64,000 bases of DNA, taken from contig JAGBSH010000028.1 in assembly GCA_017631885.1 (NCBI GenBank), positions 141,937-205,936 of the forward strand. The letters are read 5' to 3'. This DNA is from Fibrobacteraceae bacterium (GTDB lineage: Bacteria > Fibrobacterota > Fibrobacteria > Fibrobacterales > Fibrobacteraceae). The position numbers and the translations under genes were made by a program. Positions 23,199 to 28,978 of the stretch are shown one piece after another. How positions within the stretch are numbered: position 1 is the stretch's first letter; each line of letters opens with the position of its first letter. The notes beneath the pieces were generated by a model. It was not told the origin of the DNA. It was given only the letters and a program-made list of their open reading frames with translations, and made no database searches.

Positions 23199-23900
23199 GT
23201 GAAACAACAAAAACAAATTAAATCAAAGCAAAGAGTCGCTTGCCATGGCGAGGTTTTCACTGCTGAACGCGAAGTGAATGCTATGCTTGATTTAGTCAAG
23301 CAAGAAACAGAAAGAATTGACTCCAGATTTTTAGAACCCGCTTGTGGAACCGGGAATTTTTTAGTCAAAATTTTAGAACGAAAACTTTCAGTTGTTAAGA
23401 AAAAATACCGAAAAAGCCCTTTAGATTATGAACGAAATTCAATCCTTGCCCTTTCAAGCATTTATGGCGTAGAACTTTTAAATGATAATGTAGAAGATTG
23501 TCAAAAAAGGCTTTATAAAATTTGGGAAAAAGCCTACAAAAGTATTTGCAAAACAGAAACAAATGAAGACGTTCAAAAATCGGCTCGTTTTATTTTAAAT
23601 AAAAACATCGTTTGTGGAAACGCTCTGTCTTTAATGCAAGTTGACGAAAACGCTAAAGACACCGAGACACCTATTGTTTTTTCAGAATGGGCTTTTATTC
23701 GCGGAAACATTATTCAAAGAAAAGATTACACCTTTGAAGATTTAATGCGTATTGGAAGTAGCTCTAATAAAACTGAATCTACCAACAAAGCCAATGAACA
23801 AATCTCCTTTTCAACAGAGAATGCCCCAAGTGATGAAGGGAAATTTTTAAAGCAATACACCACCGATTATAGGAGTCTTTGGAAAGATGAACAAACATAA
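23199..23900 (+). CDS. Methyltransferase-fold subunit lacking the catalytic NPPY motif
   Basis: A 233-aa protein beginning with GTG, with GAGG 4 nt upstream. It has an N6-adenine methyltransferase SAM-binding fold: motif X VFTAEREVNAMLDLV, motif I EPACGTGNF (46-54), motif II IYGVELLNDN, motif III NIVCGNALS. Where the catalytic (D/N)PPY should follow, the chain reads PIVFSEWAF (158-166). It is therefore likely SAM-binding or structural but not catalytic. It overlaps the full methyltransferase downstream by 14 nt, so the two probably form one complex. Confidence 0.75.
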   Translation: MKQQKQIKSKQRVACHGEVFTAEREVNAMLDLVKQETERIDSRFLEPACGTGNFLVKILERKLSVVKKKYRKSPLDYERNSILALSSIYGVELLNDNVEDCQKRLYKIWEKAYKSICKTETNEDVQKSARFILNKNIVCGNALSLMQVDENAKDTETPIVFSEWAFIRGNIIQRKDYTFEDLMRIGSSSNKTESTNKANEQISFSTENAPSDEGKFLKQYTTDYRSLWKDEQT

Positions 23901-25506
23901 TCCAGATGTATTAAGCTGTCTTGCAAATTTATCAAACGATGAAGTATTCACACCACCAGAAATTGTGAATAAAATGCTTGATATGCTCCCACAGGAACTT
24001 TTTGAAAGTTCAGAAACCACATTTTTAGACCCATGCTGTAAAACAGGTGTTTTTTTAAGAGAAATAGCAAAACGTTTGCTTAAAAACCAAATGCCAGGCT
24101 ATGAAAAAGTAATAGAAAGCATAAATCAAAAAGCAGAAAACGACGAAGAACTTTCTACAGATGATGTTTGTTTCAAAAAAGAATTACAACAAACAATTGA
24201 CCATATTTTTCACAAGCAACTTTTTGGAATAGCCATTACAGAAATGACAAGCTTGGTTTCCCGCCGAAGCGTTTATTGTTCTAAATCACCCAATTACAAA
24301 TACTCTATTTCTCACTTTGATAATGCCGAAGGTAACATTCGCTTTAAACGCATAAACCACACATGGGTAAATGGCAAATGCAAATTTTGCGGTGCCAATG
24401 AAGAACAATACAGCCGAGGCGATTCCCTTGAAACACACGCTTACGAATGGATTCACACCGAGAACCCCGAAGGAATTTTCAATATGAAATTTGACGTGAT
24501 TATCAGCAACCCTCCGTATCAACTAAGTGATGGAAGTGGAGGTAGTACTGATGCAGCAATGCCTATTTATCAAAAATTTATTGAAAAAGCATTTGTATTA
24601 CAGCCTAAATATGCATCAATGATTGTTCCTTCAAAATGGATGGTTGGTGGAAGAGGTCTACAAAATTTTAGAGAAAAAATGATGAATAATAAAAACATTC
24701 GATTTATTTACGATTATGAAGATTCTTCTGAATGTTTTAATGGATTGCATATTGATGGTGGCGTAAATTATTTCTTATGGGATAGAGATTACAAAGGAGT
24801 TACTGAATATGTATACAAACCTAAAAATGAAAAAGAAATAAAAACTAAACGATATTTAAAAACAGAAAATTTCAACATTGTTATTAGAGATTCTAGAAGG
24901 CAATCAATTATTGAAAAAGCAACTATTGAAAATAATTCTTTTACTAAAATAGTATCTCCTAGAAAACCTTTTAACATAAATACTGATTTATTTAATTGTC
25001 CAAATAAATATCCTGAATTAAATTTAAAAGAAAAAATATATTCTAACTCTGTATTAATATGGGGTGTTAAAGGGCTTAAAGGCGGAGCAAAAAGAATTCA
25101 AGGTTTTGTAAAAAAAGATGCTATACAGAAAAATATTCAATGGGTAAACAAATACAAATTATTCATTTCTAAAGCTTATTCAACTGATGCTGTTGAATTT
25201 CCAAAATTAATCGAAGCTGATCAAAATGTTATTTGTACTGAAACGTTTCTTGTAATTGGTCCTTTTGATAACAAATACGAACAACAAAATTGTCTTTCAT
25301 ACACCGAAACAAAATTTTTCAAAACTCTTTTATTTTTTGGAAGAGGAACAATGCAAGTATCTCAAGAAGTTTTTCGTTTCGTCCCACTCCAAGACTTTTC
25401 AAAACCCTGGACAGATGAAGAACTTTATAAGAAATACAAATTCACTCAAGAAGAAATTGATTTTATTGAATCAATGATTCGTCCTATGGAAAAAGAAACT
25501 GCCTAA
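23887..25506 (+). CDS. Eco57I-like adenine-specific DNA methyltransferase
   Basis: A 539-aa enzyme. Motif X EVFTPPEIVNKMLD, an unusual motif I DPCCKTG (48-54), and the catalytic NPPY (208-211) inside VIISNPPYQLSD mark a gamma-type N6-adenine methyltransferase related to the Eco57I family. A CKFCG segment near residue 160 may bind metal. Residues about 250-510 should hold the target-recognition domain and are encoded by noticeably more AT-rich DNA. AGGAG precedes the ATG. Together with the upstream subunit and the downstream nuclease-helicase it likely forms a restriction-modification system. Confidence 0.82.
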   Translation: MNKHNPDVLSCLANLSNDEVFTPPEIVNKMLDMLPQELFESSETTFLDPCCKTGVFLREIAKRLLKNQMPGYEKVIESINQKAENDEELSTDDVCFKKELQQTIDHIFHKQLFGIAITEMTSLVSRRSVYCSKSPNYKYSISHFDNAEGNIRFKRINHTWVNGKCKFCGANEEQYSRGDSLETHAYEWIHTENPEGIFNMKFDVIISNPPYQLSDGSGGSTDAAMPIYQKFIEKAFVLQPKYASMIVPSKWMVGGRGLQNFREKMMNNKNIRFIYDYEDSSECFNGLHIDGGVNYFLWDRDYKGVTEYVYKPKNEKEIKTKRYLKTENFNIVIRDSRRQSIIEKATIENNSFTKIVSPRKPFNINTDLFNCPNKYPELNLKEKIYSNSVLIWGVKGLKGGAKRIQGFVKKDAIQKNIQWVNKYKLFISKAYSTDAVEFPKLIEADQNVICTETFLVIGPFDNKYEQQNCLSYTETKFFKTLLFFGRGTMQVSQEVFRFVPLQDFSKPWTDEELYKKYKFTQEEIDFIESMIRPMEKETA

Positions 25507-25508
25507 CC

Positions 25509-25805
25509 TTATAGCCCAAATAAATCAGCATGCGAACCTGTATCCACCAATTCAAGAATCAAGATATTCTCTTCAATCTTGTAAATCAAAAGCCAATTTG
25601 GTTCAATATGCAATTCTCTATGACCAATCCAATTGCCTGTAAGGGCATGATCTTTATATGCAGAAGAAACCTCTTCGCCTTTGGCAAGTATTTCCACAAT
25701 GTCTTTCAGTTTTTGTATTCTTTTACCACGTTTTGTGGCTCGCTTCACAGATTTTTTGAATTTTTTAGTTATTCGTATTTGATACTTATATACTTTTTCG
25801 CTCAT
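25509..25805 (-). CDS. YafQ-type mRNA interferase toxin
   Basis: A 98-aa RelE/ParE-superfamily toxin of the YafQ branch. Conserved features are ITKKFKKSVKRATKRG at the start, KDHALTGNW, REHIEPNW-like RELHIEPNWLLIYK and the closing VDTGSHADLF, with the catalytic His residues of YafQ. It would cut mRNA on the ribosome. It overlaps the antitoxin gene by 4 nt and runs convergently to the methyltransferase with a 2-nt gap. Confidence 0.9.
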   Translation of the reverse strand: MSEKVYKYQIRITKKFKKSVKRATKRGKRIQKLKDIVEILAKGEEVSSAYKDHALTGNWIGHRELHIEPNWLLIYKIEENILILELVDTGSHADLFGL

Positions 25806-26071
25806 AACCCTAAATCATCCCACAGTTCCTTTGGCGATGCATATGTTTTGGCATTAGGGTCACGGGCTAAATTTTCACCTTCTTTTATGGCTTCTAAAAG
25901 TTCTTTAGAAGGGGGCCTTGTAACGGCAAATGGCAAGCCATGGTGCAACAAGGACTGTTTTAAAAAAACAGTTATAGCCTGCGATAGCGAAAGCCCCAGG
26001 TCATCAAAAAGTTCAGTTGCTGAAGCTTTCAGCTCTTTATCTAATCGAATATTTGTAACTACTGTACTCAT
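25802..26071 (-). CDS. RelB/DinJ-family antitoxin
   Basis: An 89-aa antitoxin. The N-terminal ribbon-helix-helix NIRLDKELKASATELFDDLGLSLSQAITVFLKQ matches RelB/DinJ, and the C-terminal half would wrap the toxin. I chose the start MSTVVTNIRLD, which matches the family; an in-frame ATG 129 nt upstream would add 43 residues of unrelated sequence and cross the operator. It is coupled to the toxin by an ATGA overlap. Confidence 0.9.
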   Translation of the reverse strand: MSTVVTNIRLDKELKASATELFDDLGLSLSQAITVFLKQSLLHHGLPFAVTRPPSKELLEAIKEGENLARDPNAKTYASPKELWDDLGL

Positions 26072-26087
26072 ACTTCTAAATATACTA

Positions 26088-26114
26088 CAAATACTTTCAA
26101 AAGTAAAGTATTTG
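26088..26114. promoter_or_regulatory. Putative operator of the toxin-antitoxin pair
   Basis: A perfect inverted repeat CAAATACTTT/AAAGTATTTG with a 7-nt spacer lies 17 nt upstream of the antitoxin start and about 80 nt upstream of the divergent nuclease-helicase gene. Ribbon-helix-helix antitoxins bind such palindromes to autorepress. Here it could also affect the helicase promoter. Confidence 0.65.
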
Positions 26115-26194
26115 TATTTAAAATGTTGTCTTTTTGCCGAATTTTCAGTTAAAAATCCATATTTTGGCTGTTTGAAACGCCATCGGGAGTTGTT

Positions 26195-28978
26195 ATGCAA
26201 TTAGATCGTTTTTTTAAAGAACGCCCACAAATAAGCCCCACCATTTATGCTTATACTCTTCCTGAAGCAAATTCTCATAATGGCTACATTAAAGTGGGTT
26301 TTACTGACCGTTCCGTTGAAGAACGTATAAAAGAGCAAGTTCATACCGCTGGTTTAAAACCTAAAATTTTATTCAAAGAACCGGCTATGTGTGCTGATGG
26401 TTCTTGCTTTACCGATAAGCAAGTGCATAAAATTCTTGAACGCAATCATTTTTTGCGTTTAGAAAAAAATACGGAATGGTTTAAGTGTTCAGAAAAAGAT
26501 ATTCTTGCAGCCATTAATGAATTAAAAACCGGCATTCGTTCTGATAGCGATAGAAATGAATTTTTTTCTATGCGCCCAGAACAACAAGCGGCCGTAGAAA
26601 AAACGAAAGCTTATTTTGATTCTGCATTAAAAGAAAATTCCAAGCAATCTCCAAAATTTTTGTGGAATGCTAAAATGCGTTTTGGAAAAACTTTTGCCAC
26701 TTATAAACTTGCTGAATCAATGGGGTTAAAAAAGATATTAGTTCTTACTTTTAAACCGGCTGTTGAAAGCGCTTGGGCTAGTGATCTGATTCATCATATT
26801 GATTTTAAAAATTGGCAATTTATTTCTAATAAAGATGCTAAAGAAAATAAACTTTCTATTGATGAATCATTTGAACTAGCCGATAAGAAAAAGCCTATTG
26901 TTGTTTTTGGTTCTTTCCAGGATTTACTTGGTACTAATCAAACTGGTGGCATAAAAGCTAAAAATGAATTTATTCATGCTACGCATTGGGATCTCGTTGT
27001 TTTTGATGAATATCATTTTGGTGCTTGGAGAGAGAACGCTAAAAAACTTTTCCAAGTGGCAGATGAAGAATCTGAAATTGATTTTGATATAGAAGAATTT
27101 CAAGCAAAAGAAGCTGGTAATGCTTTAGATGAAAGCGTTTTACCAATAACTACAAAATACTATTTATACCTTTCTGGAACACCTTTTAGAGCTTTAAATT
27201 CTGGTGAATTTATTGAAGAACAAATTTTTAATTGGACTTATTCTGACGAACAACGCGCCAAAGAATCTTGGGCTAAAAAAGATAACCCTTATAAAAGTTT
27301 GCCGCAAATGGTTATGCTTACTTACAAGATTCCTGAAAGTATCAGCCACGTGGCAAATGCAGGCGAATTTGATGAATTTGATTTGAATGAATTTTTTAAA
27401 GCTTCTGGCAAAGAAAACAATGCGACATTCAAGCACGAGCGCGAGGTCCAGAAATGGCTTGATTTAATTCGCGGTTCTTATTTGCCTTCTAATATTGATG
27501 ATTTAAAACTTGGGCAAGACAAACGCCCACCAATGCCATATTCTGACACTCGCCTTTTGAATATTTTACAGCATACGCTTTGGTTTTTACCCGATGTGGC
27601 TTCTTGCTATGCTATGAAAAATTTAATAGCACAAAGGCAAAATACTTTTTATCATGATTACCAAATAATTGTATGCGCTGGCACAAAAGCAGGTATTGGT
27701 TTAGAGGCGTTAAAACCAGTTCGAAAAGCTATGGAGACCCCTCTTAATACAAAAACGATTACTCTTTCTTGTGGTAAATTAACTACAGGTGTTACGATTC
27801 GCCCTTGGAGTGGTGTTTTTATGCTTCGCAATTTAAAAAGCCCGGAAACTTATTTTCAAACGGCTTTCCGTGTGCAATCTCCTTGGGAAATAAAAGACGA
27901 CTTTGGAAATCAAAAAATTCTTAAAGAAAATTGTTACGTCTTTGATTTTGCTTTAGATAGAGCTTTAAAACAAATTGCAAGTTATAGTTCTAGGTTAGAT
28001 ATTAACGAATCAAACCCAGAAAAACGCGTTGCTGAATTTATCAAATTTTTACCTGTTCTTGCTTATGATGGTTCAGCAATGACGCAATTAAATGCTTCTG
28101 CTATTTTAGATATTGCTATGTCTGGCACTTCGGCATCTTTACTTGCAAGACGTTGGGAATCTGCTTTACTTGTAAACGTAGATAACATGACTTTAAATCG
28201 TTTAATGAATAACGAAGACGCCATGAAGGCGTTAATGAAAATAGAGGGATTCCGCAGTTTAAATTCAGATATTGAAACTATCATTAACAAATCTGAACAA
28301 GTTAAGAAACTAAAAACTAAAGATAAAGAACTTACACAAAAAGAAAAACGAGAAATTTCAGAAGCCGAAAAAGAGTATAAATCGAAACGAAAACAAATTC
28401 AAGAAAAGCTAATCAAATTTGCAACGCGCGTTCCTGTATTTATGTATTTAACAGATTACCGCGAGCATTGTTTAAAAGATGTGATTACCCAACTTGAGCC
28501 CGGTCTTTTTAAAAAAGTCACAGGGCTTGATGTTAAAGATTTTGAGCTCCTTTGTTCTTTGGGTGTTTTTAATGCCAGTTTAATGAATGAAGCAATTTTT
28601 AGTTTTAAACGCTATGAAGATTCAAGTTTAAGTTATATGGGACTTGATAGACATAAGGCAGAAGATATTGGTGGTTTTGATACAGTGCTTCGTCGAGAAA
28701 AATATGAAGAACTTTTTTATTCACAACAACTTTCAATGAAACTAAATCCTATTGCTACTTTAAAAGCAGAAGAGAATTTTGGCCTTCAAAAAGCCGCTGA
28801 AGTAAAGAAATTTTATAATTCCATAAAAAAAGACACAAGTGTTTTCCATAAAGAATTCGGGAAAGGAACTGTTTCAAAAATTTCAAAAGACAAAAAATAC
28901 ATTTATGTGAAATTTGGCAAAATAGAGAAAATGTTCGTTTTTCTAGACGCTTTTGAAAAAGGTTTTTTGAAAGCATAG
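26195..28978 (+). CDS. GIY-YIG (T5orf172-like) nuclease fused to SF2 helicase
   Basis: A 927-aa fusion. Residues about 17-110 form a GIY-YIG superfamily domain of the T5orf172 type (YIKVGFTDRSVEERI, then TEWFKC). A type III Res-like SF2 motor follows: Walker A-like AKMRFGKTF (159-167), DEYH (271-274), LSGTPFRA, and QTAFRVQSPW near 555. A Lys/Glu-rich helical stretch (about 700-745) and a final HKEFGKGTVSKI...YVKFG segment resembling the C-terminal beta-domain of UvrD/PcrA helicases end the protein. GGGAG lies 6 nt before the ATG. It is the probable restriction subunit for the adjacent methyltransferase. Confidence 0.82.
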   Translation: MQLDRFFKERPQISPTIYAYTLPEANSHNGYIKVGFTDRSVEERIKEQVHTAGLKPKILFKEPAMCADGSCFTDKQVHKILERNHFLRLEKNTEWFKCSEKDILAAINELKTGIRSDSDRNEFFSMRPEQQAAVEKTKAYFDSALKENSKQSPKFLWNAKMRFGKTFATYKLAESMGLKKILVLTFKPAVESAWASDLIHHIDFKNWQFISNKDAKENKLSIDESFELADKKKPIVVFGSFQDLLGTNQTGGIKAKNEFIHATHWDLVVFDEYHFGAWRENAKKLFQVADEESEIDFDIEEFQAKEAGNALDESVLPITTKYYLYLSGTPFRALNSGEFIEEQIFNWTYSDEQRAKESWAKKDNPYKSLPQMVMLTYKIPESISHVANAGEFDEFDLNEFFKASGKENNATFKHEREVQKWLDLIRGSYLPSNIDDLKLGQDKRPPMPYSDTRLLNILQHTLWFLPDVASCYAMKNLIAQRQNTFYHDYQIIVCAGTKAGIGLEALKPVRKAMETPLNTKTITLSCGKLTTGVTIRPWSGVFMLRNLKSPETYFQTAFRVQSPWEIKDDFGNQKILKENCYVFDFALDRALKQIASYSSRLDINESNPEKRVAEFIKFLPVLAYDGSAMTQLNASAILDIAMSGTSASLLARRWESALLVNVDNMTLNRLMNNEDAMKALMKIEGFRSLNSDIETIINKSEQVKKLKTKDKELTQKEKREISEAEKEYKSKRKQIQEKLIKFATRVPVFMYLTDYREHCLKDVITQLEPGLFKKVTGLDVKDFELLCSLGVFNASLMNEAIFSFKRYEDSSLSYMGLDRHKAEDIGGFDTVLRREKYEELFYSQQLSMKLNPIATLKAEENFGLQKAAEVKKFYNSIKKDTSVFHKEFGKGTVSKISKDKKYIYVKFGKIEKMFVFLDAFEKGFLKA

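Follow-up and report, generated by a model that had tools for sequence, protein, structure and literature searches.

A DrdVI-type split-methylase restriction locus with reciprocally degenerate M1 and M2 subunits in a Fibrobacteraceae genome

RESULTS

A three-gene locus of the DrdVI type

A 64,000-nt stretch of a Fibrobacteraceae bacterium genome (contig JAGBSH010000028.1; hereafter the window) carries three plus-strand genes, here called M1, M2 and H, which by their sequences are a member of the known, little-studied DrdVI-type split-methylase restriction family, so the system as such is not new. M1 and M2 likely form one N6-adenine methylase, which would shield the cell's own DNA, and for H we predict ATP-driven translocation and, through its GIY-YIG domain, cleavage of unmethylated DNA; we put the probability of this reading at about 0.77. 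What we add to the published accounts is the reciprocal degeneracy of the two methylase subunits: judged from their motifs, each keeps those of a site that is missing or altered in its partner.

M1 (positions 23199..23900; 233 aa, GTG start) represents the NPPY-less, S-adenosylmethionine (SAM)-binding half of a gamma-class DNA methyltransferase, M2 (23887..25506; 539 aa) the catalytic, NPPY-bearing and target-recognition subunit, of the Eco57I family, and H (26195..28978; 927 aa) a predicted GIY-YIG nuclease fused to a superfamily 2 (SF2) translocase. The lengths and strand of the open reading frames and the 14-nt overlap of M1 and M2 (23887–23900) were as described in an initial annotation of this DNA, and with overlapping genes coupled translation is probable. 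That annotation also had H following on the same strand, which it does, but M2 and H do not adjoin: 688 nt separate them, and the interval contains YafQ and DinJ/RelB genes on the opposite strand (25509–26071) that had been overlooked. G+C content was 34% in M1, 31% in M2 and 34% in H vs 37% in the window. The sequence features by which we recognize the DrdVI type were found here, namely an M1 homologue with SAM-site motifs and no NPPY, an M2 homologue with NPPY and the Lys motif I, a translocase–GIY-YIG fusion and the order M1–M2–H on one strand. A further trait of the type, N6-methyladenine made at an asymmetric site by M1 together with M2, is reported in print for DrdVI and MaeIV. Identity to the trio of plasmid pDrdVI was 45% for M1 (184 columns, DVJ83_RS18915), 39% for M2 (575 columns) and 55% for H (862 columns, DVJ83_RS18925).

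Reciprocal motif loss in M1 and M2

Counts out of 121 refer to one alignment per family, made up of the window protein and the best 120 of about 8,000 relatives, and counts out of 95 to the genome loci described below. In M1 the motifs run in the order X (EVFTAE), I (EPACGTGNF, residues 46–54), II (YGVE) and III (NIVCGNAL), followed by PIVFSEW (residues 158–164), and Pfam matched MmeI_Mtase to residues 39–147 (1.7e-7). Motif I (23334..23360) is a canonical SAM-site loop with both glycines present in 121/121 proteins, and the D or E of motif II is likewise kept in all 121. PIVFSEW (23670..23690) stands in the (D/N)PPY position, as the initial annotation had noted together with the NPPY of M2; FSEW was found in 120 of the 121 M1 proteins (the remaining one has FSKW) and NPPY in 121 of 121 M2 proteins. 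This near-invariance argues that the absence of NPPY from M1 is due neither to chance nor to decay. [ND]PP[YFW] was absent from the M1 frames of all 95 loci (0/95), and the exact pattern PIxF[SA]EW was missing in 9/95, where M1 is variant or truncated. M1 lengths among the best 120 homologues ranged from 218 to 271 aa, in a search that considers only lengths of 0.55–1.75 times the query. We rejected the idea that M1 is a frameshifted fragment, because its length lies within this family range and its C-terminal end is conserved.

M2 presents the complementary picture, with EVFTPP, DPCCKTGVF as motif I, FGIA and then NPPY (residues 208–211), and a Pfam match to Eco57I (3.8e-38). Its N-terminal half, up to and including NPPY (23887..24519), is an altered SAM half: Lys52 (codon 24040..24042) replaces the first Gly of motif I in 121/121 proteins, and the motif-II position (residue 116) is non-acidic in 121/121 (A in 111, S in 5, G in 3, T in 1 and P in 1). 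NPPY itself, motif IV, lies at 24508..24519. The initial annotation had regarded M2 as a complete enzyme, a view that the Lys in motif I and the Ala in place of the motif-II acid do not bear out. Across the loci, the Lys pattern was missing in 7/95 and NPPY in 9/95, mostly where M2 is missing or truncated. A normal methylase encoded elsewhere in the same genome has FFDPACGSGNF, FYGIE, GNAL and GNPPF all in one chain. The M1 and M2 profiles aligned with E 3.7e-10 over 52 columns, from motif X to motif I only; within it the two N-termini share 44% identity, and the exchange of G for K is conspicuous. In a structure model of M2 the second strand ends at residue 116. We equated the motif positions of M1 and M2 on the basis of the alignment with the same-genome methylase, the M1–M2 profile alignment and the M2 model.

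His158, Cys165, Cys168 and His190 of M2 were invariant in a 20-row alignment (residues 158–190, window 24358–24456), at the place where motif III is expected. This cluster would be a possible, putative zinc site inserted in the SAM half.

The helicase-nuclease H

H unites an SF2 motor with a GIY-YIG domain, as the initial annotation had proposed. Pfam matched T5orf172, a GIY-YIG type, to residues 17–110 (1e-8; 26243..26524) and ResIII to residues 124–289 (9e-7). Residues Y18, Y20, R39, R44 and E94 were found in 120 of 121 rows, the remaining row having a gap, and the SF2 core motifs GKT, DEYH, SGTP and QxxFRxQ were invariant across all 121. The tail of H (residues 836–927; window 28700–28975), which lies beyond the end of the DrdVI protein (851 aa), has a conserved GxxVxHKxFGxGxV pattern. 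We presume that it resembles the SH3/tudor-like end of UvrD-type helicases.

Synteny and spread

At least about 8,000 relatives were scored for each of M1, M2 and H, all scored M1 relatives passed, and at least 554 relatives were confirmed in species genomes. Profiles of M1, M2 and H had no match among PDB sequences at E ≤ 0.01. Matches were found in 95 of 98 loci, and in 76 of these the three genes share a strand and follow the order M1–M2–H; the 76 complete loci include some with partial or split genes, and two of the 95 (L001 and L002) are pieces of the window itself. The 19 incomplete loci comprise these two pieces, 13 whose sequence stops no more than about 0.3 kb from the final match and four others. 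M1 and M2 frames overlap or lie at most 30 nt apart in 74 of the 76 loci, with 329 and 863 nt in the exceptions. Chance neighbourhood of the three genes was rejected, since all three occur together in 76/95 loci. The synteny check that the initial annotation had suggested was therefore positive. It had also allowed that homologues of M1 might normally carry NPPY, with M1 a frameshifted fragment, or that the three genes might not be conserved together; given no NPPY in M1 in any of the 95 loci, an M1 length typical of the family and the 76/95 synteny, neither is the case.

The loci came from Fibrobacter, Clostridia, Bacteroidota, Spirochaetes, Chloroflexi, Verrucomicrobia, Proteobacteria, with a single short contig from a methanogen bin, and plasmid records extend the range to Deinococcus, actinobacteria, alphaproteobacteria and lactic-acid bacteria. 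A phage, NatCom_35866 (L130), encodes the M1–M2–H trio. A near-identical H cluster (P0121, 100%) represents 156 member sequences, and an M1 cluster (P0001, 98%) represents 144. M2 reading frames are split in two relatives (L020 and L049), and M2 and H are shortened in another (L030). A tblastn search (E 1e-8) did not find M1, M2 or H in 12.5–16 kb around aroE in four related genomes (L153–L156), so the window copy occupies a variable place. A literature search on Dehalococcoides found nothing.

An exchangeable target part of M2

Relatives of M2 point to a modular protein. P0262 is 100% identical to the window M2 over residues 1–211, 37% over 212–495 and 98% over 496–539, and P0264 gives 98, 34 and 95% over the same three segments; the M2 proteins of L005 and L006 are 100% identical, then 36%. 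The region after NPPY (24520..25503), whose last ~44 aa are sometimes kept, is the exchangeable and presumably target-choosing part, to go by these comparisons. The identical N-terminal half of P0262 beside a different target part points to selection for new specificities.

Pairwise distances of M1, the M2 N-half and H were correlated at 0.67–0.68 across 65 loci (0/200 label permutations as high), while those of the M2 C-part were correlated with M1, the M2 N-half and H at only 0.17–0.19 (0 to 2 of 200 permutations as high). The 65 were taken from the 76 complete loci, leaving out the near-duplicates L085 and L087, M2 without NPPY, and proteins that failed the length limits (M1 200, M2 480 and H 800 aa). 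Mean distances were 0.30 for the M2 N-half, 0.31 for H, 0.43 for M1 and 0.56 for the M2 C-part. The M2 N-half thus ranks with the best-conserved parts of the system and first among the methylase segments, which argues that it is not decaying. The initial annotation had seen M1 as a structural or target-binding partner of M2. A conserved partner without NPPY, in one gene unit with M2 and H, it is; the target-binding or merely structural role is unsupported, since the part of M2 after NPPY is exchangeable and M1 keeps the SAM-site motifs.

Other gene architectures

We refer to separate M1, M2 and H genes, as in the window, as architecture A. Six loci from genomes of the same family (L115–L119 and L123) show architecture B, in which M1' (an open frame of 308–332 aa) is followed by an NPPY protein (347–368 aa) that starts just before NPPY and by a helicase of 1,058–1,148 aa whose C-terminus carries the M2 N-half, Lys kept (DLYMKSGLYI). 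The first part of the helicase is a separate frame in L117. A single 683-aa open frame combines M1' with the NPPY part in L123, whereas in the other five the NPPY half is separate (~350 aa). Architecture C, an M1-type gene with a fused helicase–M2 chain, was found on plasmids L128, L129 and L132 and also in L120 and L126, and Lys is kept in all five chains; in L120 and L126 the M1-like frame is more divergent, and one gene intervenes in L120. In cyanophage MA01 (L131) the fused chain is shorter, and an M1-like frame lies close to it.

An M1-like gene stood beside the M2-type gene in 12 of 13 re-examined loci with other architectures or distant relatives. The broad M1 profile was built from architecture-B and plasmid members, and the independent tests are only L120, L126, L131, L121–L122 and L124–L125. 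NPPY was absent from the own part of every M1-type protein checked in architectures A, B and C. These fused and split forms indicate that the M2 methylase fold is naturally divided at the boundary between SAM binding and catalysis and that its SAM half can sit on the helicase chain. The methylase fold has known permuted orders, and a split into a SAM half and a catalytic half fits them.

On the Enterococcus faecium plasmid pDY28-optrA (L128), M1 and the fused helicase–M2 lie near annotated optrA and erm(A). Enterococcus accounts for 32 of 72 plasmid records matching M1, among which L128 is the one read.

Genes between M2 and H

The two genes in the 688-nt interval lie outside the restriction–modification machinery. 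They are, on the minus strand, a YafQ-type toxin gene (25509..25805; 98 aa; Pfam YafQ_toxin, 3.9e-34) and a DinJ/RelB antitoxin gene (25802..26071; 89 aa from the ATG at 26071; NCBIfam RelB_DinJ, 8.9e-18). The gap exceeds 80 nt in 22 of the 76 complete loci, and 18 of these have an open reading frame of about 75 aa or more in it (L016, L025, L027, L028, L036, L038, L039, L043, L045, L065, L068, L077, L078, L085–L088 and L093); L085–L087 are near-identical in this count. The cargo includes Abi_2/AbiD (L016), RES (L039), DUF2971 (L077) and YafQ with RelB (L036 and L045), the window YafQ being 57% identical to the YafQ proteins of L036 and L045, which have the same position and orientation. Several other cargo genes gave no clear family in PADLOC and Pfam. 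The cargo of L085–L088 is EVE-like by eye, but Pfam gave no match for L085 or L088 and we do not claim that identity. From these sequences, the site between the modification and restriction genes looks like a recurrent landing place for other defence or toxin genes.

Elsewhere in the window, two tRNA-Leu genes with the identical GAG anticodon lie near each other (447–755).

DISCUSSION

A possible division of labour

In the mechanism that we propose, M1 would hold SAM through its intact motifs I, II and III, and M2 would catalyse via NPPY, with the choice of target sequence falling to its exchangeable C-part. The N-terminal half of M2, a SAM fold with an invariant Lys and without the motif-II acid, would mainly tie the methylase to the helicase-nuclease. 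H would move along DNA and cut unmethylated foreign DNA through its predicted GIY-YIG domain, and two converging H-bearing complexes might produce the double-strand break, by analogy with Type ISP enzymes as described in the passages available. This assignment of SAM binding to M1, catalysis and target choice to M2 and a link to the helicase to the M2 N-half is inferred only. Taken one step further, the active site may be built in trans from two oppositely decayed chains, M1 holding the methyl donor and M2 supplying NPPY and the target reader, with the altered SAM half of M2 coupling to the helicase-nuclease, so that exchanging the SAM half paired with the catalytic half would switch between marking and cutting; we offer this as a tentative proposal that may well prove wrong.

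Several observations weigh against our interpretation. An AlphaFold2 model of M2 alone resembles a complete gamma methylase (best match over residues 7–519), so M2 may itself bind SAM in an unusual way. The structure model of M1 is poor (predicted local distance difference test score, pLDDT, 56.5), and the fold searches made with it listed no methylase, mostly helical unrelated proteins, and are uninformative on the M1 fold. Motif I is weakened in M1' of architecture B (ITCGEAP). M1 is kept without detectable H in the four other incomplete loci (L012, L089, L092 and L095; M2 is kept in three), and L121 has a 441-aa M2-like frame without motif I, probably a remnant, with neither M1 nor H in 7.6 kb. 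The family counts rest on the best 120 of about 8,000 relatives. Because peptides from M1 motifs (ETERIDSR and EPACG[DTN]GN) served as seeds for the genome scan, the number of those loci with motif I is not an independent result. The sections available of the published DrdVI-type accounts contain no demonstration that both M1 and M2 are required, or that H cuts.

The model of M2 as a full gamma methylase lends itself to another explanation, in which M2 is a complete methylase that binds SAM by itself in spite of the Lys. M1 would then serve as an allosteric or DNA-clamping partner, its SAM site being either regulatory or a vestige. The strict retention of Lys-[ST]-G, which is not decaying, is also what a working, unusual cofactor site would lead one to expect. 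However, two hallmarks of SAM binding, the motif-I Gly and the motif-II acid, are gone from M2 in 121/121 proteins and both kept in M1 in 121/121, and loci in which M2 and H form one chain (L120, L126, L128, L129 and L132) still have an M1-like gene; we regard this explanation as possible, if rather unlikely. Far less probable is that the pair is a remnant. M1 would then have originated as a degenerate duplicate of the N-terminus of M2, and the system here would be modification-only or dead, H having been severed from the operon by the toxin–antitoxin insertion. The 688 nt and two opposite-strand genes that part M2 from H would suit such a remnant, as would the relatives in which M2 frames are split (L020, L049) or both M2 and H are shortened (L030). 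Against it, none of the three window frames is broken and all have lengths usual in the family, the motifs show little or no variation across 121 rows, near-identical H (P0121) and M1 (P0001) clusters stand for 156 and 144 sequences, and P0262 pairs an identical M2 N-half with a different target part.

The trio might also be an LlaGI/LlaBIII-like Type ISP machine in pieces with another nuclease. In the fold matches of the M2 model CamA and BseCI outscored LlaGI, while TaqI, BrxX and DrdV equalled it, which indicates a shared fold, not special kinship. The nuclease is from a different family, and we know of no separate SAM-site subunit, the counterpart of M1, in Type ISP. This descent is improbable in our view.

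The DrdVI-type family is widespread, yet barely mentioned in the literature searched. If the reading of reciprocal loss is true, these loci encode a naturally split adenine methylase whose target module can be exchanged, which would help to explain how a restriction machine switches between marking and cutting and would be a source of new recognition sequences.

Comparison with known systems

Type III enzymes (Mod/Res) have a PD-(D/E)XK nuclease on Res and a beta-class Mod. We rejected this assignment, as the domain of H is GIY-YIG and motif I of M2 precedes NPPY, the gamma order. In a METTL3–METTL14-like pair one subunit is complete and the other is without a working SAM site. The initial annotation had drawn this analogy, which is poor because it is M1 that retains the SAM-site motifs, and we rejected it, given that by sequence each subunit appears to keep the motifs of one site with those of the other lost or altered. 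Strict Type IIG enzymes join nuclease and methylase in one polypeptide; this class was rejected too, the window genes being separate, although DrdVI is listed as IIG (PMC6430315). Type ISP enzymes LlaGI and LlaBIII are alike in having an SF2 motor and a gamma-class methylase with a target domain, but in the descriptions available they are a single chain with an Mrr-family nuclease, and the three chains and GIY-YIG domain of the window led us to reject this assignment. The passages covered of a Type II enzyme review name no GIY-YIG enzyme with a helicase.

The closest system is DrdVI of Deinococcus wulumuqiensis NEB 479, whose plasmid pDrdVI (L127) has a homologous trio in the same order and strand as the window: M1 with GxG and without NPPY, M2 with the Lys motif I and NPPY, and a helicase-nuclease. 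The window differs in its 76 aa longer H (927 vs 851), its target part and the YafQ/DinJ genes between M2 and H. Equating the pDrdVI trio with M1, M2 and R of DrdVI is a mapping made here from plasmid, accession and gene types. M1-2.DrdVI, labelled IIG, was expressed from a clone in E. coli ER2796 and matched to N6-methyladenine (m6A) at GCAGCC (PMC6430315). 'Split methylase' is the published name for DrdVI relatives (PMC6430315, PMC10113651); M1/M2.MaeIV, so called, is reported to make m6A at GCACY, and a broken Bibersteinia trehalosi relative is reported with GIY-YIG. The initial annotation had supposed an unusual, little-described system. With DrdVI in print the novelty falls away; the mechanism is little described, the sections searched of the DrdVI literature giving short mentions only and no explanation of how the split operates.

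Homologous helicase and M2 parts also occur in the fused PADLOC entry 'REase_MTase_IIG' (PDLC03626) and in pairs on Enterococcus, Lactococcus and Lactiplantibacillus plasmids. Three of these plasmids were read; M1 is adjacent and, unlike in the window, helicase and M2 are one chain (1,452–1,465 aa). M.AquI and M.EcoHK31I, which are natural split enzymes, are likewise single methylases with their conserved motifs distributed over two polypeptides, in the text available of PMC3404938. They are, however, simply divided cytosine-C5 enzymes, whereas in the window M1 is an extra SAM half and M2 carries an altered copy.

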